From positions 20,817,601 to 20,881,600 of the forward strand of contig CM049319.1 of NCBI GenBank assembly GCA_026874595.1: a stretch of 64,000 bases of DNA, read 5' to 3'. Both the position numbers and the translations under genes were made by a program. This stretch comes from Sipunculus nudus. Taxonomy: Eukaryota > Annelida > Sipuncula > Golfingiida > Sipunculidae. The notes under the pieces are model-generated. The model had not been told where the DNA came from. It saw nothing but the letters and a program-made list of their open reading frames with translations, and searched no databases. Positions within the stretch are counted from its first letter, which is position 1; the number at the start of each line of letters is the position of its first letter. This document shows positions 24,331 to 56,754 of the stretch, piece after piece.

Positions 24331-24380
<50 letters not shown>
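24330..24380. repeat. (TA)n microsatellite at loop edge
   Basis: A TA run joins the Penelope-like 3' end to the right arm of the inverted repeat. Confidence 0.95.
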
Positions 24381-24384
<4 letters not shown>

Positions 24385-25470: not shown

Positions 25471-26410
25471 GGTTCCCATGTGACTCTATCAAGATACAAA
25501 GTTTTGGAAAATTCCGTCCAGCGGTTGAAGAGGAGATCTTCGTTAACGAACGCCGCTGAAAACAAAAATGAAATGGATTGATTTTAATTAGATTTAATTT
25601 AATTCAGTATTGTTCACTGATGGAAAAGGTGAGTATAAAATATTTTGGTACATGAGGAAATTTTAAAGGTTTTTGTTTTGACCTATCGAAAATGATACCA
25701 TAATGCATGGTAACGGTTTTATAAAGATCATTTTTGTGACTAGAGGCGTTTTGCTGAAGGAAGATTCACTGGAAACTAGTTTATTCTGAAGATGTACGGA
25801 GTATACTGTAATATAACCATTATCCCTCCCTCATCTGTAAAGTAGGTTCTTGTTTATTTTTTTTATTTTTGTTATTAGAATTTTAAAAATAACAGTAAAC
25901 ACCTTGATTTTCCCTGTGCTAAGGTACCTGAATTAACAAAATCCTCCAGTACAAAAATGATAACGGCTGGTATTATGAGGCCAGGAAAACATTTAATTGA
26001 AAACCCAAAAATGACCTTGAAAGCCTTCATCTATTCTTGCCTTTCTATAATGAAGTAATTTGATCCAGTGTGCTTGGCTGATTAGTGTTTTATTTTAAGA
26101 TTTTTAGTATTATTTATTAATCCAATAATTTGGTTATAAAGCTAAGAATCCACCAGCATGTCGATTCGTTTTGTGCAGCAACCATTCCGCATGCCGGATC
26201 CGTGTATATGGGATCTTACATTATTTTCTCAGTCAATTTCGATTATATCCGTCTGCCGGTTCCACGTTCTGTGCATATGGAATTTTAGTTAACTTTAACA
26301 TATTTTCGGATCGCACTCACATTACCAGTCTAGACAGAGAGAGAGAGAAAAAGCGAAAAGAAAACGGATTTATATGTTATAGGATTGGCCTGGAGTGTAT
26401 ATATAAATAT

Positions 26411-26449
<39 letters not shown>

Positions 26450-26803
26450 AAAAGAGAGAGAGTATATAAATATTTCATTACATACGGAGTTTAGTATAGT
26501 CATTATTCAGATATTAAAAATATATGTAAAAACAGCTCCTCCACAAATTATAGATGAACTTTTTTATTCATGTGTGCAGAGAATAAATGGCGTCTCTCAA
26601 CCAGTCTCTGTTACTCATATATTCCCTCATATTACCATGTACTCTTTCTTCTTGTAATATAACATTATATGTGACATTTGAATATACATATCTGAGATAC
26701 ATGAAATAACACATTATTACCCAAACGACTTTCACAGTTTGAATTTTCTGCAATGTGAACACTTTTACGATATGCACTGTTGAAAAAAAGGCAACGTAGC
26801 GGT

Positions 26804-27205
26804 TCTAGGGCCAGTCAAATATTCTGTTTAGCAATGCATGCGTATAATATCTAATTGTAAGGACGTTAGTAGGCTCTCATCTGCTTGAGAAGACTCTCAT
26901 GGACAGTAGCATGTTTTACCCCTTTCAGAGCTCCCATACACTTTTCCTCGCCGTCCTTTCTGTAGCAATAAAACCCCTTTCCCTCACTGTAAAATATCAC
27001 ACAAGAGTCAATCCTGCGAAGAATGCCCAGAAACTCTTCGACTAAAGCTAGTTTACAAGCGGGTTTTTAACGAATAGAGCAGAATCTAATATCAGGAAAT
27101 GATTAATGGGGAAATACTTGAAATGAGGCAGGAAACATAGGTAGTGAATACCGTGTTTGCTTATTTCAGTGTTCAGATTAAGCTGTGTCCGGTTCTCCTG
27201 GTAAC
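26804..27205 (-). pseudogene. 3' remnant of sulfotransferase-like gene, mirrored copy
   Basis: Reverse-complement counterpart of 16281-16682. It shares the same missing 5' half, the same 1-bp loss and the same premature stops, so the damage predates the inverted duplication. It is divergent from the intact gene at 28356. Confidence 0.88.
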
Positions 27206-28355
27206 GTGTATAGAACAATATAACGGCGTTTTCTGTCTTTCTGTTTGTCCGCCTGTGTGTATATGTATCTGCAAGCGCAAGTACATAGAAATGGCAGAGG
27301 CCAGGACATAGAATAAACGTATCTTTTAATACGCCCCCAACCTAGTTTACAATAACGCTCTACTCTAGTAGGACGAAAATTATGAAGTAAAATTAGCATA
27401 TCCGGAGCGCTTACATTCTTTTAACTGTGGTTTGTCAATCAGGTAGTCAAGTACCGTTACTTCGGGTGGGGGATGGGTGAGATCTGAGCATTCATGGGTA
27501 AAAAAAAATGTCGACAGTATTTCCAAGAAAATTCAATTTGACTGTTGACTATCACTCAGTTACCCTTAAGCTTCGTATATTAAAGCAAGTAATTATGTTC
27601 TGTGATTAGAGCTTATATTATAACAAACTACCAACAGAAATGACAATTTATTGCATGTATTTTAATAAATGTCCACACGGGGCAGGGGGATTCCTCCTCC
27701 AGCAGTCCCGCCCACTTCGTCTGTGGGTAGTTTGTTATAATTTAAGCTGCAATCACAGAACATCATAATTTTCTTTACTTACGTGGCGTAAGGGTACCTG
27801 AGTGATAGTCATCAGTCAAATTGAACTTTCATGCAAATACTGTCCACACTTTTTTTAATTATGGATTCTCAGATAGCACTTCCCCTATCCCCGCCCGAAG
27901 ATGCACCAGAGTGAAACGAATGTAAGCGCTCCGGATATGCTCATATAACTTCGTAATTTTACTAATATAGTAGAGCATTATTGTACACTAGGTAGGGTGA
28001 ACTTAATAAAAGATTCGTTTATTCTATTTCCTGGTCTCTGTCATTACTATGTACTAGCTCTTGCAGATACACATGTACACAGGCAGACAGAAATCGTATA
28101 ATGTTGTCTACACGTGAATGGCTGTAATAAATAAAGATATTGATTTAAGAGCCAAACTTAAACTTCACAATGGCTATAAACCACTAAATTCATGAAGGTG
28201 CTGTTTCTTTTTAGTAGCATCATATATCGAAACAAGAGCAAGCGAAACCTTATATATGATATATGTATTGACGTATATACATATTATGTTCCTATATTCC
28301 TGGTACGAAGACTGACAATATCATTTTTGGTCATCGTTGCGAAAGGGCAGCCATA
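27206..28355. promoter_or_regulatory. shared upstream region of divergent sulfotransferase copies
   Basis: This is the mirrored copy of the old imperfect inverted repeat (centre near 27676) and the 5' flank of the intact gene. A TATATATGATATAT stretch near 28250, about 100 bp before the ATG, could act as a TATA box, but the region is AT-rich and this is weak evidence. No other gene is visible. Confidence 0.4.
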
Positions 28356-29348
28356 ATGGTTCAGAGACCGTATAGACTGTGTGTTCTGGTAAGCGTATTT
28401 TGTTTGGTCCTCTGGCTATTTATGTATGAAGAAACGTATCCATCACTGGTTAGAAGTGCAACAGGAATAAAAGAAGCTATATCGGCTCGTAAAGGCGGAG
28501 AAAAAGTTGTTCAAGAAGAAATTTCCTCGTCTCCAAACACGTCATTACATTATGCATCTAAATCTACATTGATGAAACGTCTTCCTCAAGCACATGTCTT
28601 AGGAGCAATGAAAGGAGGAACTCAAACTATGGAAACCTTTCTAAGACTCCATCCTAACATTGTACAGGCACCAATCGGCTTTCATACCTACCGAGACGCA
28701 GTGACTAAAGGCATAGACTGGTACCGGTCTCTCATGCCTCTGTCCCGAGAAGACCAGATAACAATGACAGCTGCCGGAGGGTTTTGTGGGGATGGCTCCT
28801 ATGCTAATGCGCAAAAACTACATGCGGTAACTCCAAATATTAAACTAATTTTAATATTAAGGGATCCAGTCCAAAGAGCCATATCACATTTTTCAATGTG
28901 GCGTGCGGCCCGCCCATACTGGAGAAATAAAACCATAGAAGACGCTATATGTTACCAGGATAATCGGACACAGCTCAATCTCAACACGGAAATAATCAAA
29001 TTCGGTATTTACTACCTTTGTTTCCTGCCTTATTTTAAGTATTTCCCCATGAATCAGTTTCTGATATTAGATTCTGCCCTGTTCGTTAAAAACCCGCTGG
29101 TGGAACTAGCGAAAGTCGAAGAGTTTCTGGACATTCCTCGCAGGTTTGACTCAAGTATGATATTTTACAGTGAGGAAAAGGGGTTTTATTGCTATAGGAA
29201 GGACGGCGAGGAAAAGTGTATGGGAGCACTGAAAGGAGTCAAGCATGCTACTGTCAAGGAAAGTCTTCTAAAGCAGATGAGAGCTTACTATCATCCTTTC
29301 AATGAGAAATTATACGCATTGCTCAACAGAAGATTTGACTGGCCATAA
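28356..29348 (+). CDS. heparan-sulfate glucosamine 3-O-sulfotransferase-like protein
   Basis: An intact single-exon gene of 330 residues. The family transfers sulfate from PAPS to the 3-OH of glucosamine in heparan sulfate in the Golgi. A short basic N-terminus and a hydrophobic segment (about 8-23) fit a type II membrane anchor. The 5'-phosphosulfate loop is GAMKGGT (83-89), and the 3'-phosphate motif is RDPVQRAISHF (169-179). The family's C-terminal disulfide loop is present (GFYCYR...KCMGALKG, Cys279/Cys288), and the protein ends FDWP. Possible N-glycosylation sites are N61, N191 and N203. The usual EVHFFD region reads IGFHTYRD, so the catalytic glutamate expected two residues before the histidine appears to be glycine; activity or substrate may differ. 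The length is typical. An AATAAA follows 236 bp after the stop. Confidence 0.9.
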   Translation: MVQRPYRLCVLVSVFCLVLWLFMYEETYPSLVRSATGIKEAISARKGGEKVVQEEISSSPNTSLHYASKSTLMKRLPQAHVLGAMKGGTQTMETFLRLHPNIVQAPIGFHTYRDAVTKGIDWYRSLMPLSREDQITMTAAGGFCGDGSYANAQKLHAVTPNIKLILILRDPVQRAISHFSMWRAARPYWRNKTIEDAICYQDNRTQLNLNTEIIKFGIYYLCFLPYFKYFPMNQFLILDSALFVKNPLVELAKVEEFLDIPRRFDSSMIFYSEEKGFYCYRKDGEEKCMGALKGVKHATVKESLLKQMRAYYHPFNEKLYALLNRRFDWP

Positions 29349-34627: not shown

Positions 34628-35007
34628 ACTCCCGCAAGACGACCACCCCGTTAACATGACCACTCCGCTAACACGACCACTTTTCTTGGTCCCAGAATTG
34701 TCTAATATAAATTATCATATAAAAAAACTTCGTTAACACGACCACCCCGCTATCACGACCAACGACCACCTTTTTTTGGTCCCGACCTTCAAATGAGCCC
34801 CCGTATCACGACCACTGGCCCGTGGCGACCGCGGCCCGTTGAGCAGATGACACGCTCATCGCCCAGCTTGGACTTAGATAATAGCCCGTAATTAATTAGC
34901 CGTATCACGACCACTAGCCCGGGGCGACCGCAGCCTGTTGGGCAGAGACACGCTCATCGGCCAGCTTAGACTTAGATAATAGCCCGTTATAATCAGCGGG
35001 GCATGTG
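34623..35007 (+). mobile_element. pogo/Tigger-like element, left part
   Basis: Starts AGTGAACTCCCGC next to (TA)n. Repeated CCGCTAACACGACCAC-type motifs match the other terminus, whose inward reading is CAGTAAAACCCCGCTAACGC (42761 inward). Positions 34801-34899 are duplicated in tandem at 34900 to about 34995. The left part ends at TGTG, the target duplication of the inserted transposon. No transposase remains here. Confidence 0.65.
35004..35007. repeat. target-site duplication TGTG, left
   Basis: TGTG at 35004-35007 matches TGTG at 42244-42247, directly abutting the terminal inverted repeats CAGTCC...GGACTG. Confidence 0.8.
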
Positions 35008-35175
35008 CAGTCCAGCACATTTTTCCAGAATACCAGCTCAACTTGAGCTGGGGGTCAGGTTACAGCAGACTGTCATGCATGGAGCCCGGGGTTGATTAAT
35101 TGCCCTGATAAAGTGTTTGCCCTGGTCTGTGGGGTTCAGCAGATTTACGTGCTGCTATCATATTTACACAGTGCA
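35008..35175. repeat. terminal inverted repeat, left (168 bp)
   Basis: Pairs base for base with 42076-42243 (coordinates add up to 77,251), with about nine mismatches. It contains a perfect 19-bp palindrome at 35033-35051 (CCAGCTCAACTTGAGCTGG). Confidence 0.92.
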
Positions 35176-36457
35176 GTATAATGCTACAGAATATAGCTTA
35201 ATTCTAGTTGCAAAATAATAATAGAAAAAATAATAAGAGTACAAAATATAAATTAGTGCATTTTTTAACAAAAAAAAAATGTAATAATAAAGATGCAAAA
35301 TACAGCAGGCCTATTTATTTGACATACATGCAAAGAGCAAAACTGTTAAAATATAATTGTGTGGCAGCAATCAAACCTTCAGTATATTCCTCTTATAAAA
35401 TACAGATAAAACACAAAATCAATATTAAATACATGTACTTATGTATTTATAACTCTCTTGTTTTAAAGTGTAAATATGAACTGTAATGCTATAATAAACT
35501 CACTTTTGTGCTTAATTCATATTATCAAATGGGATCTGTCAAACGAAACACGTTTGTTCTATTTTGTTTGGTGGTTGTTTTGTCACATAGGCACCACACA
35601 AACCAAATAGGCCTCTTAACATCTGCACTAAAATTCTTATGGCTTTAGAATAAGTTTTTTTTATATTGCCACAATCACGAACAGTTAATTTGCAGACATT
35701 ACTAACTTTTCACTAGGTTCAAATCACCATATTTCTAGAAGTAATATAAGGAATTACTATTTAGATTTAAATGGTCATAGTTTAATTTTTACAGACAGAA
35801 TGTAATCTAATAACCTGATTTTTAACTTCCAATAGTTTTCTGCCAGCAAAATTGTGAATAGAACATTGCACGCGGAAACCCTTTTCTGGGAAAATTCCTG
35901 AGAAACAAATATTTTTACAACACAACTTATCTGTTTTACAGTTTTTTTTTTAATCTGATAACTAAATACAAACCAGGCGAGTGCATATTGAAAAAGACAT
36001 TTCAGTCACAATTTCAGTACACCCATTACATACAGTGTACTTAATATATTCATGAATATGATAAGTAGGTGTCATTTTAATATCAATCATGATAAGCCCC
36101 CAAGCTAATAATAATAAATTCAACATATTATGACAAAATTGATTGTAAGATTAATTTCATTTGTTGTGTTAGGAAAAAAATCTATAATTACTTCTACTGC
36201 TACGTTTCACTTCTGTGAAACCATGCAGCCGATTGCAAACTGTTTTCTGGCTTTGATATGTTTACTTCTGTCTGGAGTGTCATTGGGCATGTTGAACATC
36301 TTTATCATAGTATCCCTTTTCAATCTTGTGTCTGTTCAATGCTGTTGGCATAGTTTATCTGCAGTAGGGAGTGGTATATACAATATGAGCTTTTTATGCA
36401 ATAAAAGTTGACCTTGAATGATCCCATAAGGTCAATCTGATCATCATGAAAGTCTAA
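35176..36457. other. 3' untranslated/non-coding part of the transposon
   Basis: AT-rich sequence between the nuclease stop codon and the terminal repeat. Minus-strand translations are full of stops and plus-strand frames show nothing recognisable. Confidence 0.6.
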
Positions 36458-37504
36458 TTATGAGTTATCATCATGTTTTAATTTATATTTTGGTGTAGAT
36501 GTCAAAATTCTTTTTCTTCTTGTGCCCTTTTGTGGAGTGACAGGAGCTTTTCTCTTGACCTGACTGGATACCACCTGTGGAATTAAAAATGTCTTTTGTG
36601 TTGTATTTATTGAACTTGGCTCTTGTTGATCTTGGCTGAGAATTTTGTACGACTCGGACCCAAAGTCATATTCAATTTTTCCTGCACTTGTTTTCTTAAG
36701 ACAACCTTTGCCTAGAAAATCGGGAAGTGAAGCATCATGACAGCCAACAGTCTCCAGGTATTCAATTTGAAGCTCCACTAGTTTGGTAACTTGAGTGAGA
36801 CAGCTCATTGGTGGAAGCCACATCTGTGGGTTTCTATACTCTCCTGTATTTTGTGTCATAATAGTTAATTTCCTCACCTCATCAAAATCCATGTCTTGTG
36901 GCTGTTTCCTTTTTGGGCAATATAAGTGTTTGATAAGGTCTATGAAAACACCGGGATCAAGGCTGACTTTGTCACGACTCGTACAGATCAAATTTTCTTT
37001 GAAATGGTCATTCTGTATCACCTGGAGCAGCATTTTTTCATGGGATATCCCATAGAATTTGGGCAGGAAATCATTTCCACCCATACAGAGTGTGACTGCA
37101 ACTTTCACACCAATCTGGCGGTCTTGCAGATGGTTTTCAAGAAACTCCAGTATACCGGTGATGTTATAAATGTCCCATATTCTCTTTGGTTTCTGCAACA
37201 GTACAAAGACAGAGTTACAAAATTTTCCATCTTGTCTCCTAGGCCACAACCTACTGATGGCAAACAAATGAATGGGCACAGCATCTATGTCACCAGAGGT
37301 GACAATGCTCACACAGCTGTCATTCTGTCCAAGCTGAGAATGACATTGCGACAACCAGTCAACTTGGGCAAGTTCTGCCTCACCCTTCCTTTGCTTGACA
37401 TATTCAAGCCTTTGAATAGATGGAGGAGTTCCATTTTGCACAAAGTTGCACTTGACAGGTACAGTGTAAAGATGACAGATGCAAACAATAATTGGCAGGA
37501 GCAC
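36458..37504 (-). CDS. XPG/FEN1-family nuclease module of the transposon
   Basis: The 348-codon frame holds the XPG I-region: KGEAELAQVDWL (Gly41-Glu42-Ala43-Glu44), IVTSGDIDAV (Asp72 and Asp74) and GGNDFLPKFYGIS (Asn144, Asp145). These match the GEAE, SxDxD and GxDxxP metal-binding patterns of structure-specific FEN1/XPG nucleases. The C-terminus is basic (KRKAPVTPQKGTRRKRI), likely a nuclear signal. The N-terminal acidic motif may be LTLVIDSEYYL in the preceding frame (near 37530), so the two frames probably belong to one protein split by a frameshift or unseen intron. They overlap at 37309-37504. The first ~30 residues are probably not real coding. Confidence 0.8.
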   Translation of the reverse strand: MLLPIIVCICHLYTVPVKCNFVQNGTPPSIQRLEYVKQRKGEAELAQVDWLSQCHSQLGQNDSCVSIVTSGDIDAVPIHLFAISRLWPRRQDGKFCNSVFVLLQKPKRIWDIYNITGILEFLENHLQDRQIGVKVAVTLCMGGNDFLPKFYGISHEKMLLQVIQNDHFKENLICTSRDKVSLDPGVFIDLIKHLYCPKRKQPQDMDFDEVRKLTIMTQNTGEYRNPQMWLPPMSCLTQVTKLVELQIEYLETVGCHDASLPDFLGKGCLKKTSAGKIEYDFGSESYKILSQDQQEPSSINTTQKTFLIPQVVSSQVKRKAPVTPQKGTRRKRILTSTPKYKLKHDDNS

Positions 37505-39551
37505 CCTTCCAGGTAGTATTCGCTGTCAATGACCAAAGTTAGATCAGCTGGTATTTTCAAATTTGTGGCATTTGCAGCAACGTATGTGCTGATCAGGCTC
37601 TTCCCTTCTGCTGTTTCTAGGATGGCCTTTTTGTTGAAGACTTCATCACTTAAAATACTATCAGATGTTTTCAGATGGGAAATCGAAGCTGACCTGTTTG
37701 TTTTTCTTTGTTCTCTAGTAGCAGCTTTGAAGTCATCAGGAGTAAATTTATATTTCTCCTCACACAAGACTAAGGTTTTCAGTTTTGGAAGTTGTTTTCT
37801 TGTGGAGTTGATCACTGCTGACTCAACAAATTTCAAATACTGGGTGCCAGATGCGGCATGTGCCTTGAATTTTACACCAGCAAATTCGACTGTCCCGTAC
37901 GTTGAATATTCAGACACAATGGCTGGTATTTTTTCTTGTTCAGTCAATATCAGACTTCCTGTGTCGGTTTCATTTGCCTTGATGGTACAAGCACTTATCA
38001 AAGACTTTAAAGCCTTGACAACACTGGTGGACTTTTTTACTTTAGGTTTGGTACAGTCTGGCTTCACTAAAGCCTGACAAGTGTTCATTTTAGAACTTAT
38101 GTGGTCCATCTTCTTTGTCTCTCTTTTAACTATTTGTTGCCTCTTTTCCTCTGCTTTCTGTTCATCTGTTTTGTCTATAATTGTTACCTTGTCAGTTGAC
38201 CTTTTCACTGTTGTGCTTTTGCTTTTCCTTACCCTGTTTCTCAAAGTTGCAGGACATTCAGTTTCGTCTAGGTCATTCAGGTCATCTTCTGTGATATTGA
38301 ACAGTTTTTCTTTCATCAGAAACTTTTTTATGAGATAGGTTCCAGCTGCTTTGGTGGGATTGTCTAAAACTGATTTAGACAAACATTTCTTTTCTTGTAT
38401 GTAGACATTGAAGACTGACTGACAAGGCACTGTTGACAAACCACCCCTTCGCAAGATAAGGGATGCAGTAGGGACGATGTGATTCACATCATTTTGGGTC
38501 AGACGCCAACCTAAATCATCTTCTGTCTTTTGGAAGGATGCACGTTTCTCCCCTCTGTGTTTCAGCTGTTGTACATGTATCTCATTCAATGGATCTAAAA
38601 GAGACATCCTACATGTGACCGACTGAAGGGTTGATCCTGAACGGAACCCCCTAAGCACGTCCTGGTGGTCCATTTCTCTTTTCGTGTCACCAGCAAAATT
38701 GAATGAACTGTTCCCAATGGGTGTGGCAAACAAGGTTTCTTTCATATGTTGATGGTAAGGGCCATTGGAGTAATGTTCATGGAGGAGTAAGGTGCAGAAA
38801 GGGGCATAACAGCTTGCACCATTGAGATATGAGAAGCCAAGTGAGGACTTCACAGCAGCTAACAAAAGTGTGTAGCCACCTTTCCCTCCTAAACGTTCAG
38901 CTAATGATATAGCCAGTATCTCATCGCAGTGGCGCATTATGTCACAATGTAAGGCAAAGGTAAAATTCTGTGCTGAGCTGCGTTTAACAAAATCTTCTAA
39001 TCTCTCTCCCCATTGGTCTGCCACACTACTAGGATCATCACTTGCAAATGATTCTCTTAGTTTTTCCAATTCTTCTCCCTCCAGTGTAGTTGCAAATCGA
39101 ACAATGACTGCCAGGTGCAGAGCTTGAGACAAGCGCTTCACATTCCTTGTTGCTACATCAATATGTGTTGCCGAGACAAGCTTTGTCCATTCATCCCTGT
39201 CATCTTCTCTCATGAATTTCAACATATGAATAATGCCAGCATCCTTGTATGCGCTAAACAAAGTGGTGATCCTTGATTTTCGCAAATGAAGAAGTGGGAA
39301 ATCAGGCAGAAACTGTTCATACTTTTCTTCTTGCTTGACCAATTTCAACAGGTTGGTTCCCAATTTGTGATCAGGTCCAACAAGGATTTTGTCCTGTTTG
39401 TTTATTTTGTAGCGGCCAGTCTCGATCAAAATGTCATCCAGTATATCTCTTAGAACATATATGTCATCATCTCGCCCTGTTGCTGGTGGAGGGTGCCTGC
39501 ATAAAAGTGCTGGGGCAATGGACTTTTCAAAGCCAAACAAGTTTGGAATAG
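37309..39551 (-). CDS. large exon of the transposon gene
   Basis: After the 43-bp intron the frame runs AIPNLFGFEKSIAPALL to ADLTLVIDSEYYLEGCSCQL, about 740 residues. The middle contains LGGKGGYTLLLAAVKSSLG, VLRGFRSGSTLQSVTCRMS and DLGWRLTQNDVNHIVP. It is followed by a lysine-rich, probably coiled region (DKTDEQKAEEKRQQIVKRET). I do not recognise a DDE core. The last ~35 residues (GLNMSSKGRV...) overlap the nuclease frame and look like read-through. The same exon without frame change stops at 50188 in the other arm because one G is missing there. Confidence 0.7.
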
Positions 39552-39594
39552 CTGCACTTTTTTGCACTTGAGTTAGTTGTTTCACCTGTTTTAC

Positions 39595-40316
39595 CTTCAT
39601 CATTCAAACTAAGATCATGCATTGACAATTCAAGATGTGATATGTTATCATCCCCCTCCTCACTTAACATGCTATCATCCTGTAATTGACAAAATTCATT
39701 CTCAAATTGACTGATTGTTCCTGGTGCTTCCATCTCTACATGTTCTGTTTTTTGCTCAGCATCATGATCTTGCATTATGTCATACAGTTCGTCCTCATCC
39801 CTGTCAACGGCATTGCCATCCTCAGATGCAAGCTCCATCTCTTCTTGAATGGTGGATGTACTTGGTCCAAGTTGAGACACCAGACACTGCATTGAAATGG
39901 AGGACAGTTTTTTCTAAGTTAAAGCTTTATAAATTGCTTGATCACTGAATTAAAATAACTTGCATGATCACTAAGTAAATATAGCTTACTTGTCCTTGAT
40001 AACAGGGACAATAGAGCCTGTAACCAGTGCCAAGATGCCCAATCATGAACCTGTAGGTATACTTAATTTATAGATATGTATAAAATTTTTAAAGATGGTG
40101 AGTTGGATTTATGAAATTTATAGGTATTTAGCTCAGCTGCCTATTAGTCAGATATATTAATTTTTTTATATTTTGTATATGTCCATTTGTACTCCATTTC
40201 ATATGACTAAATATATATTTCTTATACCTCATCTGTGCAGATATCATTTTCGGAACTCTCAAGGGCTGGTGGCTCAGAGACATTTGGATCCATTGTGAGG
40301 AAGATTGCAAAGTCAT
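39595..40316 (-). CDS. three small exons of the transposon gene
   Basis: Exons 40228-40316, 39990-40050 and 39595-39886 mirror those at 47277-47998, with identical splice signals and phases. The last exon encodes the acidic linker EDGNAVDRDEDELYDIMQDH. Confidence 0.65.
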
Positions 40317-40596
40317 CTGGAAAAAAAGATGATTTGTGCAAATAAGTCACCAATAGTTAATAAGTGGCTATTTTGAAAGACAGAATATTAAATTGAATAA
40401 CTTCATTATTATTGACTGTTAGATACTAGGAATTATAAAGTTTCAATCTAAATTGTACTTAGTACTCCATAATTTTCTGTGTTGATACAAACTGGCAGAA
40501 AGGTAGACCAACAATTGCCGTTTCTGTGTATGTTTAAATGAGATGTTCAGCAATAATAATGACTAATAAGTATTTTCACTTAAATATATTGCCTAC

Positions 40597-41169
40597 CTTG
40601 GAAGTCTGCCAGGAAGATGAGAAGCCCCAGGTACAAAGCATATGGAAACGATTCAAACAGTTGTCTTCCTCAGTAGTCAGATCCATGATGAGGGATATAT
40701 CACTGCTTTGCAATGAAACAGGTTTTTTGCAGCGACAGTTGTCACTACCATCACAAATTGTCGAGTCATGCCACGAATCAACCACTGCAGCATCCCTAGG
40801 TAGACCTTGTAGTGTGATGGGCAAGGTACATAACTGCTTGGAACGCCCTTGTCCAGGGTTTGGATCACTGTGATATTTTAGTCGTACAAGATTGTCCAAC
40901 ATCAGAATTATGGTGCAGTCCCTTAGGCTAACATCAAATGTTCCAAATCCACCAACAGACATGTATTCCAAAGGGTACTTTCTTAGGTATGTATTGTAGT
41001 AACAAAGGTCATCACTAGCCTTTTGTTTCAATTTATTCTCAGCTGTTGTCAAACAGCTTGTTGCTCCAGCACTTACTGTGACAGAAAAGGCAGACTTAAC
41101 ACTCTGATAATGTAGAGAGAGCTCCTCTGTGTTTGCTTGCTGAAGAATGCCTAAATAATGCTTATTCAA
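40597..41169 (-). CDS. coding segment with LDNLVRLKYHSDPNPG motif
   Basis: 191 codons up to a donor at 40596. It is the same protein as 21302-21874 with a few substitutions. It overlaps the upstream frame by 4 bp in a shifted frame, as in every copy here. Confidence 0.62.
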
Positions 41170-41963
41170 GGTGTAAGTAAAATGTCATGTGTTTCATAGA
41201 GACGGGCTAATTTCTTTTTTAAAAATGCCTCTTTGTCATCTGCCTTTGAGAGAGTTTCTTTGTTGATGAATGATTCCAGTAGTAACTGTACTTCCAGTGG
41301 CACATCCAACAGCCATTCACATTCAATTTGAAATTCTGATATCTTCAGAGGTTTTGGCATGTCCTTGGCAAAACATGTTTTGCACTTGATACTTTCACTA
41401 TCATCCTGTGGTAACTCAAGGTCATATGTGGAATCTTTAGGATATGTGAATGCTGCATGGATGTTATTTGACAACTTTTTTAGCTTGACTTCATCACGCA
41501 AGAGAAATCTGTTTGGTCTTGCTCCACACTGATAGACCCCAAGTGTTCCAGGTAGAAAGAACACAATATTGGACCAGACACAATGTTTTCTCGCCAAATA
41601 TGCTGCAATTCGTTCTGCAATATATCTGCATTGTCCATTGTGCCCTTTGGCCAACTCAGCATAAATTTCAATCTGATTTACTCCATCTGTCAAAGTGGGG
41701 TCCACAGAAACAATTTTTGTCACTTTGTCAGGAAATTCAACTTGAATAAATTCAGTAACTTGCAAATCAAGAATGCATGGCAAATGTTTCTGTTCAGCAA
41801 TCAACTCAACCTCGTGTTCCAAGTTTGTGGCCTCTTTTCGCAAGGATCGTTGGCTCAACAACTTTTTCGATTGAATTAGCATTTGTTGAGAAATAATTTT
41901 TGTTTGTTGTATATAGTGAAAATATTTCCATTTGTCTGACCGACTTTCTTCATAACAGCTCAA
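41166..41963 (-). CDS. 5'-most surviving coding segment
   Basis: About 260 codons (CYEESRSDKWKYFHY...YETHDILLTP). It contains VDPTLTDGVNQIEIYAELAKGH and NIVFFLPGTLGVYQCGARPN in an uninterrupted frame, unlike the copy near 20822. The start is at a deletion junction, where 5' untranslated sequence (GGGACATTTTGAG) runs straight into coding sequence, so no genuine initiation codon is present. Function unknown. Confidence 0.6.
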   Translation of the reverse strand: MSCYEESRSDKWKYFHYIQQTKIISQQMLIQSKKLLSQRSLRKEATNLEHEVELIAEQKHLPCILDLQVTEFIQVEFPDKVTKIVSVDPTLTDGVNQIEIYAELAKGHNGQCRYIAERIAAYLARKHCVWSNIVFFLPGTLGVYQCGARPNRFLLRDEVKLKKLSNNIHAAFTYPKDSTYDLELPQDDSESIKCKTCFAKDMPKPLKISEFQIECEWLLDVPLEVQLLLESFINKETLSKADDKEAFLKKKLARLYETHDILLTP

Positions 41964-42075
41964 AATGTCCCAATTTTATGTAAAACAGTGTTAAATCCAG
42001 CATTAAAATATAAAACCATTCAGCAACAAGCAGGGCAACACTAAGAAACAAGCATGCTCCTAGATCCTGTTCACA

Positions 42076-42243
42076 TGCACTGTGTAAATATGATAGCAGC
42101 ACATTAATCTGCTGAACCCCACAGACCGGGGCAAACACTTTATCAGGGCAATTAATCAACCCCCGGGTCCATGCATGGCAGTCTGCTGTAACCTGACCCT
42201 CAGCTCAAGTTGAGCTGATATTCTGGACAAATGTGCTGGACTG
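42076..42243. repeat. terminal inverted repeat, right (168 bp)
   Basis: Partner of 35008-35175. Its internal palindrome is at 42200-42218 (TCAGCTCAAGTTGAGCTGA on the plus strand). Confidence 0.92.
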
Positions 42244-42761
42244 TGTGGGAAAGCCCGCTTTCATTTGCCCAGCCATAGTTAGGCTTGTTTATATTGCCGC
42301 CCAACTTGTTAGCCAAACTATACTGAAAGCATTCTGCCAGGAGTCCTGTCCTGATTTATGGCAGTCCATGAGTCAACTTGAGGAAAAGCTGCAAACTGAA
42401 GCACTGAAAGGAACTGTCAGGTTGAAGACACAGTCAACTCTGGTGGCATATTTTGGACGAGTGTAGATTGTACATTTTATACAATGCCCATTGACTTGTT
42501 TAATGGCTTAGTCAATCTATTTGTTTCATTTGTGTGATTTATTTCTATGTGAATAAAACTTCTGAATCATGTTTGTTATTTATTTTTCTTTATATTTTAA
42601 ATTTTGAATTAAACAGGGACAGCATATTAACATTTACTTGATATACCATCATTATCGCCTGCATTTATATTGGCAGACAAGTATCCCGCTAACACGACCA
42701 TCCCGCCAACAAGACCCCTTTGCCTGGTCCCGCAGGTGGTCGCGTTAGCGGGGTTTTACTG
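42244..42761 (+). mobile_element. pogo/Tigger-like element, right part
   Basis: Begins with the TGTG duplication and ends in the terminus GCGTTAGCGGGGTTTTACTG followed by (TA)n. Together with 34623-35007 it would make a short element of about 0.9 kb, interrupted by the 7.2-kb transposon. Confidence 0.65.
42245..42466 (+). pseudogene. C-terminal remnant of a pogo-like transposase
   Basis: The frame reads VSQTILKAFCQESCPDLW...SQLEEKLQTEAL...LKTQSTLVAYFGRV and stops. Pogo-type transposases commonly end in a PCNA-interacting box; QSTLVAYF fits QxxLxxYF. The catalytic DDD domain is absent. The identification rests on the flanking pogo-like termini and this tail, so it is moderate. Confidence 0.45.
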
Positions 42762-42784
42762 TATATATATATATATATATATAT
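42762..42784. repeat. (TA)n microsatellite
   Basis: A TA run between the pogo-like terminus and the Penelope-like 3' end. Confidence 0.95.
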
Positions 42785-43794
42785 CCAATTGTTGTATGGA
42801 GAAAGCAAGAGACCTCAAGACATGATATGTCGAGGAATTGTAGAGGTAGTAGTTGTACTACTCACTTGGTCTTACAGCTGTTTCACTGTCTCCAGTTGAT
42901 CACAGACTGAAGTGTAGTAGGTACATCTATTGTGGTTTTTCAGGTGCGCAGTCAGGCATGACGTGTCCGGGTCTTCGAGGCTTGTACACAGAGACGTGTG
43001 GCGGGCACCCCCACACAACTCTGCGTGCTTTTCTCAAGTTATTCTGTTAAGCATGAAGTTTTTACGATGTAGACATTTAGCCCCAATGTCATTTCTTTTG
43101 TTGATGTTGTTGGGGCTAGTGCTGTTTTTCAATATTTCTAGTTTTTCTGACAGACATAAGTCACAGCATTTATCACCTGGTTGGTAGGTTTTGCACTGTT
43201 TGATTATTTGCCATTTAATTTTTGGTTTAGGGTTCATTTTTTTGTCCCAGACGTATTGGGACAGGGTTGTGGCGTTCTTTTTAGATTGAGTTCTGAAAGA
43301 GTGAGTATGTTGGGTAAATCTGGTTTTAAATTTTCCTTGTGTCATGCCGACGTAGTTGATTTGGGTGTTTTCGACCGTGGCTTTGTAGATGACACCTTCC
43401 GTGCAACATTTTCCGGGGATGGGACAGTTGGTTTTGTCCTTGCAGTTGCATTTATCTGTCTGATCTTGTGGAGTGGTTTGGTCATTTAACACTTTACGGT
43501 TGTGGGATGATATTATGGAGTCAATATTAGGACAGCAGCTGTAACTGATTTTAACTGTTTTTCTGTTGATGATGGGATTTAGGATGTGGTTTTTGGGGAA
43601 GTGTTTATCAATTAGTTTTAGGAAGTTCTTACCGATATTGGTTTTGAGTGCCATGTTATATGGTGGGTTGTACCATGTTACGTTTCTACTTCTATTCTTT
43701 TTTCTCCTAGTAGTGCCTTCAGCGTTTGGTTGAAATTTAAGTAGGCTGCTATGTCCACTTTTTTTGAGAGCTTGCTCATATTCATACTTATTTT
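42785..43794 (-). mobile_element. 5'-truncated Penelope-like element, left arm
   Basis: Same fragment as 23370-24330 but with an extra ~60 bp of 3' tail (to CCAATTGTTG at the TA tract). It is cut at its 5' side exactly at the palindrome centre. Confidence 0.88.
43034..43792 (-). CDS. Penelope-like linker plus GIY-YIG endonuclease
   Basis: Encodes the same 252 residues as 23380-24138, with all GIY-YIG key residues present. It is open to the palindrome centre without a native start. Confidence 0.85.
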   Translation of the reverse strand, partial: NKYEYEQALKKSGHSSLLKFQPNAEGTTRRKKNRSRNVTWYNPPYNMALKTNIGKNFLKLIDKHFPKNHILNPIINRKTVKISYSCCPNIDSIISSHNRKVLNDQTTPQDQTDKCNCKDKTNCPIPGKCCTEGVIYKATVENTQINYVGMTQGKFKTRFTQHTHSFRTQSKKNATTLSQYVWDKKMNPKPKIKWQIIKQCKTYQPGDKCCDLCLSEKLEILKNSTSPNNINKRNDIGAKCLHRKNFMLNRIT

Positions 43795-43798
43795 GGGA

Positions 43799-44809
43799 AA
43801 AATAAGTATGAATATGAGCAAGCTCTCAAAAAAAGTGGACATAGCAGCCTACTTAAATTTCAACCAAACGCTGAAGGCACTACTAGGAGAAAAAAGAATA
43901 GAAGTAGAAACGTAACATGGTACAACCCACCATATAACATGGCACTCAAAACCAATATCGGTAAGAACTTCCTAAAACTAATTGATAAACACTTCCCCAA
44001 AAACCACATCCTAAATCCCATCATCAACAGAAAAACAGTTAAAATCAGTTACAGCTGCTGTCCTAATATTGACTCCATAATATCATCCCACAACCGTAAA
44101 GTGTTAAATGACCAAACCACTCCACAAGATCAGACAGATAAATGCAACTGCAAGGACAAAACCAACTGTCCCATCCCCGGAAAATGTTGCACGGAAGGTG
44201 TCATCTACAAAGCCACGGTCGAAAACACCCAAATCAACTACGTCGGCATGACACAAGGAAAATTTAAAACCAGATTTACCCAACATACTCACTCTTTCAG
44301 AACTCAATCTAAAAAGAACGCCACAACCCTGTCCCAATACGTCTGGGACAAAAAAATGAACCCTAAACCAAAAATTAAATGGCAAATAATCAAACAGTGC
44401 AAAACCTACCAACCAGGTGATAAATGCTGTGACTTATGTCTGTCAGAAAAACTAGAAATATTGAAAAACAGCACTAGCCCCAACAACATCAACAAAAGAA
44501 ATGACATTGGGGCTAAATGTCTACATCGTAAAAACTTCATGCTTAACAGAATAACTTGAGAAAAGCACGCAGAGTTGTGTGGGGGTGCCCGCCACACGTC
44601 TCTGTGTACAAGCCTCGAAGACCCGGACACGTCATGCCTGACTGCGCACCTGAAAAACCACAATAGATGTACCTACTACACTTCAGTCTGTGATCAACTG
44701 GAGACAGTGAAACAGCTGTAAGACCAAGTGAGTAGTACAACTACTACCTCTACAATTCCTCGACATATCATGTCTTGAGGTCTCTTGCTTTCTCCATACA
44801 ACAATTGGA
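43799..44809 (+). mobile_element. 5'-truncated Penelope-like element, right arm
   Basis: Mirror of 42785-43794, head to head with it across the 4-bp spacer. Confidence 0.88.
43801..44559 (+). CDS. Penelope-like linker plus GIY-YIG endonuclease
   Basis: Identical in product to 43034-43792. The two frames diverge from the palindrome centre and neither has an RT domain or start codon of its own. Confidence 0.85.
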   Translation, partial: NKYEYEQALKKSGHSSLLKFQPNAEGTTRRKKNRSRNVTWYNPPYNMALKTNIGKNFLKLIDKHFPKNHILNPIINRKTVKISYSCCPNIDSIISSHNRKVLNDQTTPQDQTDKCNCKDKTNCPIPGKCCTEGVIYKATVENTQINYVGMTQGKFKTRFTQHTHSFRTQSKKNATTLSQYVWDKKMNPKPKIKWQIIKQCKTYQPGDKCCDLCLSEKLEILKNSTSPNNINKRNDIGAKCLHRKNFMLNRIT

Positions 44810-44831
44810 TATATATATATATATATATATA

Positions 44832-45349
44832 CAGTAAAACCCCGCTAACGCGACCACCTGCGGGACCAGGCAAAGGGGTCTTGTTGGCGGGATGGTCGTG
44901 TTAGCGGGATACTTGTCTGCCAATATAAATGCAGGCGATAATGATGGTATATCAAGTAAATGTTAATATGCTGTCCCTGTTTAATTCAAAATTTAAAATA
45001 TAAAGAAAAATAAATAACAAACATGATTCAGAAGTTTTATTCACATAGAAATAAATCACACAAATGAAACAAATAGATTGACTAAGCCATTAAACAAGTC
45101 AATGGGCATTGTATAAAATGTACAATCTACACTCGTCCAAAATATGCCACCAGAGTTGACTGTGTCTTCAACCTGACAGTTCCTTTCAGTGCTTCAGTTT
45201 GCAGCTTTTCCTCAAGTTGACTCATGGACTGCCATAAATCAGGACAGGACTCCTGGCAGAATGCTTTCAGTATAGTTTGGCTAACAAGTTGGGCGGCAAT
45301 ATAAACAAGCCTAACTATGGCTGGGCAAATGAAAGCGGGCTTTCCCACA
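44832..45349 (-). mobile_element. pogo/Tigger-like element part, mirrored
   Basis: Reverse complement of 42244-42761. It starts CAGTAAAACCCCGCTAACGC after (TA)n and ends at CACA, the complement of the TGTG duplication. Confidence 0.65.
45127..45348 (-). pseudogene. pogo-like transposase C-terminal remnant, mirrored
   Basis: Same product and PIP-box-like tail as 42245-42466. Confidence 0.43.
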
Positions 45350-45629
45350 CAGTCCAGCACATTTGTCCAGAATATCAGCTCAACTTGAGCTGAGGGTCAG
45401 GTTACAGCAGACTGCCATGCATGGACCCGGGGGTTGATTAATTGCCCTGATAAAGTGTTTGCCCCGGTCTGTGGGGTTCAGCAGATTAATGTGCTGCTAT
45501 CATATTTACACAGTGCATGTGAACAGGATCTAGGAGCATGCTTGTTTCTTAGTGTTGCCCTGCTTGTTGCTGAATGGTTTTATATTTTAATGCTGGATTT
45601 AACACTGTTTTACATAAAATTGGGACATT

Positions 45630-46427
45630 TTGAGCTGTTATGAAGAAAGTCGGTCAGACAAATGGAAATATTTTCACTATATACAACAAACAAAAATTAT
45701 TTCTCAACAAATGCTAATTCAATCGAAAAAGTTGTTGAGCCAACGATCCTTGCGAAAAGAGGCCACAAACTTGGAACACGAGGTTGAGTTGATTGCTGAA
45801 CAGAAACATTTGCCATGCATTCTTGATTTGCAAGTTACTGAATTTATTCAAGTTGAATTTCCTGACAAAGTGACAAAAATTGTTTCTGTGGACCCCACTT
45901 TGACAGATGGAGTAAATCAGATTGAAATTTATGCTGAGTTGGCCAAAGGGCACAATGGACAATGCAGATATATTGCAGAACGAATTGCAGCATATTTGGC
46001 GAGAAAACATTGTGTCTGGTCCAATATTGTGTTCTTTCTACCTGGAACACTTGGGGTCTATCAGTGTGGAGCAAGACCAAACAGATTTCTCTTGCGTGAT
46101 GAAGTCAAGCTAAAAAAGTTGTCAAATAACATCCATGCAGCATTCACATATCCTAAAGATTCCACATATGACCTTGAGTTACCACAGGATGATAGTGAAA
46201 GTATCAAGTGCAAAACATGTTTTGCCAAGGACATGCCAAAACCTCTGAAGATATCAGAATTTCAAATTGAATGTGAATGGCTGTTGGATGTGCCACTGGA
46301 AGTACAGTTACTACTGGAATCATTCATCAACAAAGAAACTCTCTCAAAGGCAGATGACAAAGAGGCATTTTTAAAAAAGAAATTAGCCCGTCTCTATGAA
46401 ACACATGACATTTTACTTACACCTTGA
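45630..46427 (+). CDS. transposon gene, 5'-most surviving segment
   Basis: Same product as 41166-41963. It begins at the deletion junction, so the real N-terminus is absent. It ends DILLTP with TGA overlapping the next frame by 4 bp. Confidence 0.6.
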   Translation: MSCYEESRSDKWKYFHYIQQTKIISQQMLIQSKKLLSQRSLRKEATNLEHEVELIAEQKHLPCILDLQVTEFIQVEFPDKVTKIVSVDPTLTDGVNQIEIYAELAKGHNGQCRYIAERIAAYLARKHCVWSNIVFFLPGTLGVYQCGARPNRFLLRDEVKLKKLSNNIHAAFTYPKDSTYDLELPQDDSESIKCKTCFAKDMPKPLKISEFQIECEWLLDVPLEVQLLLESFINKETLSKADDKEAFLKKKLARLYETHDILLTP

Positions 46428-46996
46428 ATAAGCATTATTTAGGCATTCTTCAGCAAGCAAACACAGAGGAGCTCTCTCTACATTATCAGAGTGTTAAGTC
46501 TGCCTTTTCTGTCACAGTAAGTGCTGGAGCAACAAGCTGTTTGACAACAGCTGAGAATAAATTGAAACAAAAGGCTAGTGATGACCTTTGTTACTACAAT
46601 ACATACCTAAGAAAGTACCCTTTGGAATACATGTCTGTTGGTGGATTTGGAACATTTGATGTTAGCCTAAGGGACTGCACCATAATTCTGATGTTGGACA
46701 ATCTTGTACGACTAAAATATCACAGTGATCCAAACCCTGGACAAGGGCGTTCCAAGCAGTTATGTACCTTGCCCATCACACTACAAGGTCTACCTAGGGA
46801 TGCTGCAGTGGTTGATTCGTGGCATGACTCGACAATTTGTGATGGTAGTGACAACTGTCGCTGCAAAAAACCTGTTTCATTGCAAAGCAGTGATATATCC
46901 CTCATCATGGATCTGACTACTGAGGAAGACAACTGTTTGAATCGTTTCCATATGCTTTGTACCTGGGGCTTCTCATCTTCCTGGCAGACTTCCAAG
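46424..46996 (+). CDS. transposon gene, LDNLVRLKYHSDPNPG segment
   Basis: Same product as 40597-41169. The donor AAG|GTAGGC is at 46997 and the intron runs to 47276. Confidence 0.62.
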
Positions 46997-47276
46997 GTAG
47001 GCAATATATTTAAGTGAAAATACTTATTAGTCATTATTATTGCTGAACATCTCATTTAAACATACACAGAAACGGCAATTGTTGGTCTACCTTTCTGCCA
47101 GTTTGTATCAACACAGAAAATTATGGAGTACTAAGTACAATTTAGATTGAAACTTTATAATTCCTAGTATCTAACAGTCAATAATAATGAAGTTATTCAA
47201 TTTAATATTCTGTCTTTCAAAATAGCCACTTATTAACTATTGGTGACTTATTTGCACAAATCATCTTTTTTTCCAG

Positions 47277-47998
47277 ATGACTTTGCAATCTTCCTCACAA
47301 TGGATCCAAATGTCTCTGAGCCACCAGCCCTTGAGAGTTCCGAAAATGATATCTGCACAGATGAGGTATAAGAAATATATATTTAGTCATATGAAATGGA
47401 GTACAAATGGACATATACAAAATATAAAAAAATTAATATATCTGACTAATAGGCAGCTGAGCTAAATACCTATAAATTTCATAAATCCAACTCACCATCT
47501 TTAAAAATTTTATACATATCTATAAATTAAGTATACCTACAGGTTCATGATTGGGCATCTTGGCACTGGTTACAGGCTCTATTGTCCCTGTTATCAAGGA
47601 CAAGTAAGCTATATTTACTTAGTGATCATGCAAGTTATTTTAATTCAGTGATCAAGCAATTTATAAAGCTTTAACTTAGAAAAAACTGTCCTCCATTTCA
47701 ATGCAGTGTCTGGTGTCTCAACTTGGACCAAGTACATCCACCATTCAAGAAGAGATGGAGCTTGCATCTGAGGATGGCAATGCCGTTGACAGGGATGAGG
47801 ACGAACTGTATGACATAATGCAAGATCATGATGCTGAGCAAAAAACAGAACATGTAGAGATGGAAGCACCAGGAACAATCAGTCAATTTGAGAATGAATT
47901 TTGTCAATTACAGGATGATAGCATGTTAAGTGAGGAGGGGGATGATAACATATCACATCTTGAATTGTCAATGCATGATCTTAGTTTGAATGATGAAG
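47277..47998 (+). CDS. transposon gene, three small exons
   Basis: Exons 47277-47365, 47543-47603 and 47707-47998; introns 47366-47542 and 47604-47706. Phases match as described for 22156-22877. Confidence 0.65.
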
Positions 47999-48041
47999 GT
48001 AAAACAGGTGAAACAACTAACTCAAGTGCAAAAAAGTGCAG

Positions 48042-50188
48042 CTATTCCAAACTTGTTTGGCTTTGAAAAGTCCATTGCCCCAGCACTTTTATGCAGGCAC
48101 CCTCCACCAGCAACAGGGCGAGATGATGACATATATGTTCTAAGAGATATACTGGATGACATTTTGATCGAGACTGGCCGCTACAAAATAAACAAACAGG
48201 ACAAAATCCTTGTTGGACCTGATCACAAATTGGGAACCAACCTGTTGAAATTGGTCAAGCAAGAAGAAAAGTATGAACAGTTTCTGCCTGATTTCCCACT
48301 TCTTCATTTGCGAAAATCAAGGATCACCACTTTGTTTAGCGCATACAAGGATGCTGGCATTATTCATATGTTGAAATTCATGAGAGAAGATGACAGGGAT
48401 GAATGGACAAAGCTTGTCTCGGCAACACATATTGATGTAGCAACAAGGAATGTGAAGCGCTTGTCTCAAGCTCTGCACCTGGCAGTCATTGTTCGATTTG
48501 CAACTACACTGGAGGGAGAAGAATTGGAAAAACTAAGAGAATCATTTGCAAGTGATGATCCTAGTAGTGTGGCAGACCAATGGGGAGAGAGATTAGAAGA
48601 TTTTGTTAAACGCAGCTCAGCACAGAATTTTACCTTTGCCTTACATTGTGACATAATGCGCCACTGCGATGAGATACTGGCTATATCATTAGCTGAACGT
48701 TTAGGAGGGAAAGGTGGCTACACACTTTTGTTAGCTGCTGTGAAGTCCTCACTTGGCTTCTCATATCTCAATGGTGCAAGCTGTTATGCCCCTTTCTGCA
48801 CCTTACTCCTCCATGAACATTACTCCAATGGCCCTTACCATCAACATATGAAAGAAACCTTGTTTGCCACACCCATTGGGAACAGTTCATTCAATTTTGC
48901 TGGTGACACGAAAAGAGAAATGGACCACCAGGACGTGCTTAGGGGGTTCCGTTCAGGATCAACCCTTCAGTCGGTCACATGTAGGATGTCTCTTTTAGAT
49001 CCATTGAATGAGATACATGTACAACAGCTGAAACACAGAGGGGAGAAACGTGCATCCTTCCAAAAGACAGAAGATGATTTAGGTTGGCGTCTGACCCAAA
49101 ATGATGTGAATCACATCGTCCCTACTGCATCCCTTATCTTGCGAAGGGGTGGTTTGTCAACAGTGCCTTGTCAGTCAGTCTTCAATGTCTACATACAAGA
49201 AAAGAAATGTTTGTCTAAATCAGTTTTAGACAATCCCACCAAAGCAGCTGGAACCTATCTCATAAAAAAGTTTCTGATGAAAGAAAAACTGTTCAATATC
49301 ACAGAAGATGACCTGAATGACCTAGACGAAACTGAATGTCCTGCAACTTTGAGAAACAGGGTAAGGAAAAGCAAAAGCACAACAGTGAAAAGGTCAACTG
49401 ACAAGGTAACAATTATAGACAAAACAGATGAACAGAAAGCAGAGGAAAAGAGGCAACAAATAGTTAAAAGAGAGACAAAGAAGATGGACCACATAAGTTC
49501 TAAAATGAACACTTGTCAGGCTTTAGTGAAGCCAGACTGTACCAAACCTAAAGTAAAAAAGTCCACCAGTGTTGTCAAGGCTTTAAAGTCTTTGATAAGT
49601 GCTTGTACCATCAAGGCAAATGAAACCGACACAGGAAGTCTGATATTGACTGAACAAGAAAAAATACCAGCCATTGTGTCTGAATATTCAACGTACGGGA
49701 CAGTCGAATTTGCTGGTGTAAAATTCAAGGCACATGCCGCATCTGGCACCCAGTATTTGAAATTTGTTGAGTCAGCAGTGATCAACTCCACAAGAAAACA
49801 ACTTCCAAAACTGAAAACCTTAGTCTTGTGTGAGGAGAAATATAAATTTACTCCTGATGACTTCAAAGCTGCTACTAGAGAACAAAGAAAAACAAACAGG
49901 TCAGCTTCGATTTCCCATCTGAAAACATCTGATAGTATTTTAAGTGATGAAGTCTTCAACAAAAAGGCCATCCTAGAAACAGCAGAAGGGAAGAGCCTGA
50001 TCAGCACATACGTTGCTGCAAATGCCACAAATTTGAAAATACCAGCTGATCTAACTTTGGTCATTGACAGCGAATACTACCTGGAAGGGTGCTCCTGCCA
50101 ATTATTGTTTGCATCTGTCATCTTTACACTGTACCTGTCAAGTGCAACTTTGTGCAAAATGGAACTCCTCCATCTATTCAAAGCTTGA
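48042..50188 (+). CDS. transposon gene, large exon
   Basis: Follows the 43-bp intron 47999-48041. The product equals that of 37309-39551 up to LLHLFK, then stops (FKA-stop) because of the missing G near 50183. In this arm the frame carrying KGEAE can be read without a stop from 50064, so the indel changes how the nuclease frame might connect. Confidence 0.7.
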
Positions 50189-50463
50189 ATATGTCAAGCA
50201 AAGGAAGGGTGAGGCAGAACTTGCCCAAGTTGACTGGTTGTCGCAATGTCATTCTCAGCTTGGACAGAATGACAGCTGTGTGAGCATTGTCACCTCTGGT
50301 GACATAGATGCTGTGCCCATTCATTTGTTTGCCATCAGTAGGTTGTGGCCTAGGAGACAAGATGGAAAATTTTGTAACTCTGTCTTTGTACTGTTGCAGA
50401 AACCAAAGAGAATATGGGACATTTATAACATCACCGGTATACTGGAGTTTCTTGAAAACCATC
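50159..50463 (+). CDS. XPG-type nuclease module, partial (cut by gap)
   Basis: Contains KGEAELAQVDWL and IVTSGDIDAV and ends ITGILEFLENH at the N gap. The GGNDFLP motif would lie within the gap. Confidence 0.75.
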
Positions 50464-50963: not shown

Positions 50964-51474
50964 TTTCTTTGAAATGGTCATTCTGTATCACCTGGAGCAG
51001 CATTTTTTCATGGGATATCCCATAGAATTTGGGCAGGAAATCATTTCCACCCATACAGAGTGTGACTGCAACTTTCACACCAATCTGGCGGTCTTGCAGA
51101 TGGTTTTCAAGAAACTCCAGTATACCGGTGATGTTATAAATGTCCCATATTCTCTTTGGTTTCTGCAACAGTACAAAGACAGAGTTACAAAATTTTCCAT
51201 CTTGTCTCCTAGGCCACAACCTACTGATGGCAAACAAATGAATGGGCACAGCATCTATGTCACCAGAGGTGACAATGCTCACACAGCTGTCATTCTGTCC
51301 AAGCTGAGAATGACATTGCGACAACCAGTCAACTTGGGCAAGTTCTGCCTCACCCTTCCTTTGCTTGACATATTCAAGCCTTTGAATAGATGGAGGAGTT
51401 CCATTTTGCACAAAGTTGCACTTGACAGGTACAGTGTAAAGATGACAGATGCAAACAATAATTGGCAGGAGCAC
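50964..51474 (-). CDS. XPG-type nuclease module, partial
   Basis: Carries the GEAE, SGDIDA and GGNDFLP motifs. The C-terminal basic tail is lost in the gap. Confidence 0.78.
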
Positions 51475-53521: not shown

Positions 53522-53564
53522 CTGCACTTTTTTGCACTTGAGTTAGTTGTTTCACCTGTTTTAC

Positions 53565-56731: not shown

Positions 56732-56754
56732 TATATATATATATATATATATAT

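Follow-up and report, generated by a model that had tools for sequence, protein, structure and literature searches.

The stretch analysed here (the window) comprises 64,000 nucleotides of Sipunculus nudus, positions 20817601-20881600 of contig CM049319.1 (hereafter C14), in an assembly of 1.43 Gb and 153 contigs. At 35004-42247 of the window lies a copy of a DNA transposon with precise ends and a 4-bp target duplication, whose family is called family A below. The two terminal inverted repeats (TIRs) align without gaps and are 95% complementary (94.6% in a second computation), and the termini of the family read CAGTCC...GGACTG. Both the 168-bp TIRs and the TGTG directly outside each arm had been described in an earlier note on this DNA and were recovered when the arms were measured again. 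The outer features are as follows.

35004-35007: left target-site duplication, TGTG, adjoining the TIR; a single TGTG stands at the empty site
35008-35175, plus strand: left TIR, 168 nt
42076-42243, minus strand: right TIR, 168 nt, 95% to the left arm
42244-42247: right target-site duplication, TGTG, adjoining the TIR; a single TGTG stands at the empty site

By comparing the insertion with a copy of its flanks that lacks the element, the target duplication may be read directly. At the far end of an array of copies on C14, the right flank (81 bases including TGTG) joins the left flank, which extends for about 1.25 kb at 95-97% identity. The element-free flank repeat, at C14:20964247-20964403, matches the joined flanks at 99% over 157 of 160 bases, and the right and left flanks overlap there by exactly one TGTG. 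Because this flank repeat exists free of the element with a single TGTG, the TGTG repeat is beyond chance, and its earlier interpretation as a 4-bp target duplication holds. The flank itself is an interspersed repeat: in a genome search with the joined flanks, with 40 of 333 candidates scored, 40 of the 47 rows listed cross the junction at 84-99% identity, the base-by-base check being made for the C14 site only. When the genome was searched with the left TIR, 16 matches were scored: 15 cluster in about 120 kb of C14, and one lies in C3. The C3 match looks like a right-end remnant, as the 20 kb examined there contained no more of the element than the right end and two short internal pieces.

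Between the ends, the coding region of the window copy lies on the minus strand and is arranged as listed here in the direction of coding; family B is a second family of the same genome, introduced below.

41954-41960: deletion point, with 7 bp common to both edges, where sibling copies hold 0.8-1.1 kb
41169-41963, minus strand: coding block before the first candidate catalytic motif, placed by tblastn against family B; the upstream segment has been deleted from this copy
40603-41169, minus strand: coding block with the candidate first catalytic Asp (MLDNLVR, 40882-40902; Asp codon 40894-40896) and conserved Cys residues
39527-39892, minus strand: acidic linker coding block
37501-39573, minus strand: coding block with the candidate second Asp and the candidate Glu, then the N-half of a nuclease-like part
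39370-39372, inside the 37501-39573 block: candidate second Asp, in VGPDHK
38674-38676, inside the same block: candidate Glu, in GDTKREMDH
37705-37764, inside the same block: nuclease-like N-half motif CEEKYKFTPDDFKAATREQR
36458-37489, minus strand: coding block with the C-half of the nuclease-like part and the C-terminus, frame-shifted from the preceding block in the window copy
37352-37390, 37277-37303 and 37061-37090: nuclease-like C-half motifs RKGEAELAQ, VTSGDIDAV and LCMGGNDFLP, respectively

The segment absent from the window copy at about 41957 measures 0.8-1.1 kb in the siblings, which are 8.1-8.4 kb long by their coordinates, and it encodes the N-terminus of the protein. In four downstream copies it matches the N-terminus of family B at 30-31% identity over about 259 residues (E down to 2e-28). 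Since the sibling segment codes for an N-terminus similar to that of family B, it is the window copy that has lost sequence, and an insertion of 1.1 kb in the siblings was rejected for the same reason. The window copy has at least three frame breaks: those near 41168 and 39560 are found in the copies compared, and the one near 37489 in window-type copies only; a 1048-residue open reading frame (ORF) runs through the place equivalent to 37489 in two array copies (L014 and L016), and in a relative elsewhere in the genome (L053) one 840-residue ORF spans the region of the first two breaks. The breaks near 41168 and 39560 are either frameshifts or very short introns. At the e2-e3 join, GT-AG is kept and the frame is not obvious, and some siblings show extra one-base gaps. 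Of the complete-ended 7.2-kb transposon described in the earlier note, the ends are indeed complete, but the interior is not, given the deletion and the broken frames. The window copy is end-complete and internally defective; the whole protein cannot be made from it, and it could move only with an enzyme from another copy.

A genome search with a 691-residue block of family A gave 49 match rows, which represent the copies on C14, three loci of family B (on C2, C12 and C16, with 44-45% identity to the family A block) and several more decayed loci; from these rows, the three family B loci and four others were examined. The family B elements are 11,041, 11,000 and 11,782 bases long, and are 97.5-99.3% identical to one another at different places. 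Their ends, CAGTCCTGCTCACAGGCCCA and its near-inverse, form TIRs of about 20 nt, compared with 168 nt in family A, and CAGTC is common to both families. The copies on C2 and C12 each hold two long ORFs, one of 662 and the other of 1145-1149 residues, and the copy on C16 has one stop in the second ORF. A 3.1 kb deletion derivative of family B lies at C9 54757320-54760448. Target duplications were found at the family B insertions on C12 (TACG), C2 (TGTA), C16 (TATA) and C9 (TTAT, the derivative), so that, together with TGTG in family A, a 4-bp duplication stands at all five two-ended insertions; consistency among other copies had been suggested earlier as a check on the window element. Four other family B ends, seen singly without a partner end, are outside this count. 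The copy on C12 is inserted in a Gypsy reverse transcriptase, whose open frame is restored when the flanks are joined with a single TACG; six paralogues provide the empty site of this copy, each aligning with the complete 140-base joined sequence at equal length and 98-99% identity. The ratio of nonsynonymous to synonymous substitution rates (dN/dS) of the second ORF of family B is 0.25-0.34 in all three copy pairs (9-24 changes each). The family is mobile, duplicates 4 bp on insertion and yields deletion derivatives.

The copies on C14 themselves spread in another way. In 154 kb of C14 there are 14 exact element ends, seven per strand, of which eight carry the right flank of the window copy and six its left flank. 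Because these ends share the flanks of the window copy, the C14 copies represent one insertion that was later duplicated; independent insertions were considered and rejected, the copies having the same pair of flanks. Seven C14 copies that were compared differ at scattered sites, and the downstream copies are spaced about every 17.7 kb. The present spread of the window copy in the array is duplication of the surrounding DNA. A segmental array with common flanks is also what would be expected of a host gene or segmental duplication whose inverted repeats arose by chance. This explanation, which we regard as having next to no probability, is refuted by the empty sites and by the four family B insertions elsewhere, which are independent and have 4-bp duplications: the protein is that of a mobile family and not of a host gene, another point on which the earlier note had advised a check.

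The order of the protein is an N-terminal part, a core with the conserved motifs DNLVR, PDxK and DTxRE, in which the candidate catalytic residues are kept throughout the family, and a C-terminal part, the last with the motifs CEEKYxFTPDDFK, CxCx4-7CxC, RKGEAE, TSGDID and GGNDFLP, which are conserved among A, B and L053. Based on motifs recognised by eye and on profile tests, the core is read as holding a putative DDE triad (candidate Asp, Asp and Glu), and the C-terminal part as a putative 5'-nuclease of the FEN1/XPG type. The likeness to FEN1/EXO1 and XRN1 was seen by eye and consists of E/D in the N-half, downstream K and R, and then GEAE, GDID and GGND. The corresponding profiles were not significant: for A, B on C2, B on C12 and L053, the score was reached by 1, 39, 42 and 500 of 500 shuffled sequences with the FEN1/EXO1 profile and by 34, 28, 28 and 23 of 500 with the XRN1 profile.

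Elements of the same genome that carry the Pfam domain DUF6589 served for comparison. Judging from its helicase and nuclease neighbours, DUF6589 is presumably the Academ transposase. A Pfam DUF6589 search of the genome gave 26 match rows. At two of the loci examined (L043 and L039), a nuclease-like ORF follows DUF6589, and these nucleases are likewise without a Pfam match. At two others, a helicase ORF lies beside DUF6589 on the other strand: a RecQ-type helicase at L030 (C9:54685259; Pfam Helicase_C and RecQ_Zn_bind), and at L023 (C10:71205094) a RecQ-like helicase recognised by eye, with no Pfam match. Passages of PMC10045372 state that AcademX duplicates 3 or 4 bp and AcademH 9 or 10 bp, and its author links this to the nuclease and the helicase; because of this relation, we label the nuclease-bearing DUF6589 loci AcademX-like and the helicase-bearing ones AcademH-like. 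The genome is rich in AcademX-like nuclease elements, the L043 nuclease query giving at least 151 matches, many of them in long open frames, with 150 of the 288 candidates scored. The matches listed for that query include no locus of family A or B.

A profile of seven AcademX-like nucleases (L043, L039 and five matches of the L043 query) scored 15.8 bits on A, 7.6 on B on C2, 7.6 on B on C12 and 6.4 on L053, and these scores were reached by 0, 0, 3 and 1 of 1000 shuffles, respectively, so that the profile stood out for all four sequences, drawn from three families; for human FEN1, taken as a control, the count was 65 of 1000. The alignments of A, B on C2 and L053 are in the same register, in the N-half around CEEKY. 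Similarly, a profile of five AcademX-like transposases gave 5.7 bits for A, 8.0 for B, 12.4 for L053, 9.8 for L054a and 10.4 for L054b. The scores of A, B, L053 and L054a were reached by 0, 1, 0 and 0 of 1000 shuffles (0, 0, 0 and 0 in another run), and that of L054b, a near-duplicate of L054a, by 0 of 1000; this profile therefore beats shuffles for five of seven family sequences. The matched stretch falls between the second Asp and the Glu, and the four alignments displayed all end at the same YA motif. As negative controls, FEN1 scored -1.5 bits and the family B nuclease -2.7 bits on the transposase profile, and the family B N-terminus gave no score; a Gypsy reverse transcriptase scored -2.0 bits (110 of 1000 shuffles) on the transposase profile and -1.6 bits (133 of 1000) on the nuclease profile. 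Other DUF6589 sequences obtained 4.1, 7.2, -1.3 and 0.5 bits on the transposase profile (5, 0, 167 and 130 of 1000 shuffles), scores that those of the family about equal.

Based on these comparisons, we consider that the window element belongs to a divergent Academ-like lineage of cut-and-paste DNA transposons and is a defective copy, with a probability of about 0.75. Academ membership of families A and B is probable, and the sequence comparisons are best read as placing them on the side of AcademX, at a large distance from the AcademX-like sequences sampled in the same genome. The 4-bp duplication is within the range that those passages of PMC10045372 give for AcademX (3 or 4 bp) and outside that for AcademH (9 or 10 bp). 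The likeness to AcademX includes this duplication and the TIRs in both families, as well as the order of a transposase-like core and then a nuclease-like part, both of which are partly similar in profile to nuclease-bearing DUF6589 elements of this genome. On the other hand, the families differ from AcademX in being unmatched by Pfam DUF6589 and in carrying CxCx4-7CxC and GGNDFLP in the nuclease-like part; there, the seven AcademX-like nucleases compared show mostly motifs of the type TGCDTTS, TGSDQTS or SGADQTG. To AcademH they would be related at the transposase level at most, as their duplication is 4 bp and not 9-10 bp, and Pfam found no helicase domain in the A and B proteins scanned.

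Several results weigh against this placement. A Pfam scan of the A and B proteins reported no family (E up to 1, and up to 10 in a second scan), searching the genome with the Pfam models DUF6589 and XPG_I listed no locus of either family, and a PDB profile search gave nothing credible (three matches, E 0.6-1.1). An XPG nuclease is thus not directly recognisable, contrary to what the earlier note had implied, and the label rests on motifs seen by eye. The nuclease match covers the N-half only, without GEAE, GDID and GGND, and the transposase match contains neither the Asp nor the Glu motif; two family sequences, L056 (88 and 80 of 1000 shuffles) and L055 (42 of 1000), failed the transposase test. 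In the reverse direction, the family transposase profile was clear for one of five AcademX-like sequences (L069, 1 of 1000; the others 14-281), and the family nuclease profile for one of seven (L064, 0 of 1000; L043 5, L063 9 and the other four at least 86). A previous nuclease profile of two sequences gave 7, 500, 28 and 57 of 500 shuffles. A first test, of seven family sequences with a mixed group of DUF6589 sequences, was negative, with L054a (5 of 300) and L056 (6 of 300) near the edge, L054b at 174 of 300 and the other four without a score; in reverse, of 11 sequences, L030 gave 3 of 300 and L039 gave 4 of 300. Comparison of small profiles with hhalign was never significant (best 14%); this failure is uninformative, because the true homologues FEN1/EXO1 and XRN1 reached only 16%. 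Finally, for the first ORF of family B, two copy pairs give dN/dS values of 0.48 and 0.56, and the third has 9 nonsynonymous against 0 synonymous changes. Other libraries and sources gave little: PHROGs nothing usable (best E 0.31), NCBIfam a best E of 0.058, far below the family cut-off, and viral contigs and prokaryote genomes pattern matches with no relative confirmed. Among the titles and abstract openings listed in literature searches for Academ, XPG and DUF6589, none was about the A/B family.

The missing Pfam matches to DUF6589 and XPG could also mean that the family is a separate, non-Academ DDE superfamily, which gained a similar nuclease independently and shares the 4-bp stagger by coincidence. 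Its distance from the L039-L043 pair points the same way (z at most 2.7 for the transposase and 4.5 for the nuclease, compared with 30.7 and 21.7 between L039 and L043), as do the CxCx4-7CxC motif between the nuclease halves and the weak reverse profile tests. However, both domains, in the same order, outscore nearly all shuffles on AcademX-like profiles for most family sequences, with scores about equal to those of other DUF6589 sequences, and we consider this origin unlikely. In Smith-Waterman comparisons with the transposase pieces of L039, L043, L022 and L024, the best z was 2.7 and 19 of 20 values were below 2; control pairs within DUF6589 ranged from -0.4 to 190, so that DUF6589 members can be equally invisible to each other.

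Another explanation, which overlaps with the divergent Academ-like assignment, is that the family is an AcademX family already in Repbase and merely unfamiliar to the tools used. Academ diversity is partly catalogued, as the passages of PMC10294476 on its bivalve study mention 100 curated Academ consensus sequences. The divergence from L039 and L043 and the absence of the family from the matches listed for the AcademX-like nuclease search make this doubtful, if slightly less so than an independent superfamily. A stronger, still tentative candidate is a separate unnamed DDE lineage or superfamily, sister to AcademX and not nested in it, with a built-in 5'-nuclease, a CxCx4-7CxC metal-binding-like insert and recently mobile members; recent movement is included because of the near-identity of the family B copies at different places. 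Between the divergent Academ lineage and the distinct group that the earlier note had offered, the profiles of nuclease-bearing DUF6589 elements favour the Academ branch. The A/B family is not a new kind of system, and the branch near Academ to which we assign it is little charted.

The conserved residues, together with weak but consistent profile matches, suggest how such an element may move. In the proposed scheme, a single protein would cut the element ends with its DDE-type core (Asp 40894-40896, Asp 39370-39372 and Glu 38674-38676 in the window copy), and the same core would insert the cut ends into target DNA at positions staggered by 4 bp. The C-terminal XPG/FEN1-like domain may trim flaps or branched ends in excision or repair. 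As neither enzyme of the family is reported by the domain libraries searched, such elements are likely annotated 'unknown' in genomes, and the family merits cataloguing. The two-ended insertions, the empty sites and the long family B frames offer a clean start for work on the role of a nuclease fused to a putative DDE transposase.

The window contains four other copies of the element.

19118-23372, coding direction plus: truncated copy, which keeps the N-terminal coding segment and is itself frame-broken
45346-50463, minus strand: second copy, in opposite orientation to the first and cut off at 50463, with the same right-end flank
50964-56217, plus strand: third copy, cut at the left side, with the same right-end flank
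59316-64000, minus strand: fourth copy, inverted, leaving the window; both ends are present beyond it (59316-66560 in array coordinates)

In the surrounding array, C14 20.817-20.971 Mb (the window and loci L011-L019) consists of units of about 17.7 kb with the element, and four element copies lie past the fourth copy of the window. Two near-perfect giant palindromes, at 37129-50463 and 50964-64000, interrupt element copies at 50463/50964: the sequence of 37129-50463 is 99.96% identical to its reverse complement, and 36994-50030 is directly repeated at 50964-64000 (99.97%). They are either genuine amplification or an assembly artefact. The truncated copy is flanked by a 4.6 kb inverted repeat (14533-19121 and 24367-28953, 98.7% identical), and its N-terminal coding segment contains a tandem duplication of about 305 bp at 19637-20203, which is visible in several sibling copies too. 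Further upstream, a satellite-like array at 6957-10839 has about 50 copies of a 77-bp unit starting with TTAGGG, and tandem arrays at 11267-13748 have units of about 100, 126, 140 and 200 bp with a common TAGCAAATAGCTGCTATTTGC core.

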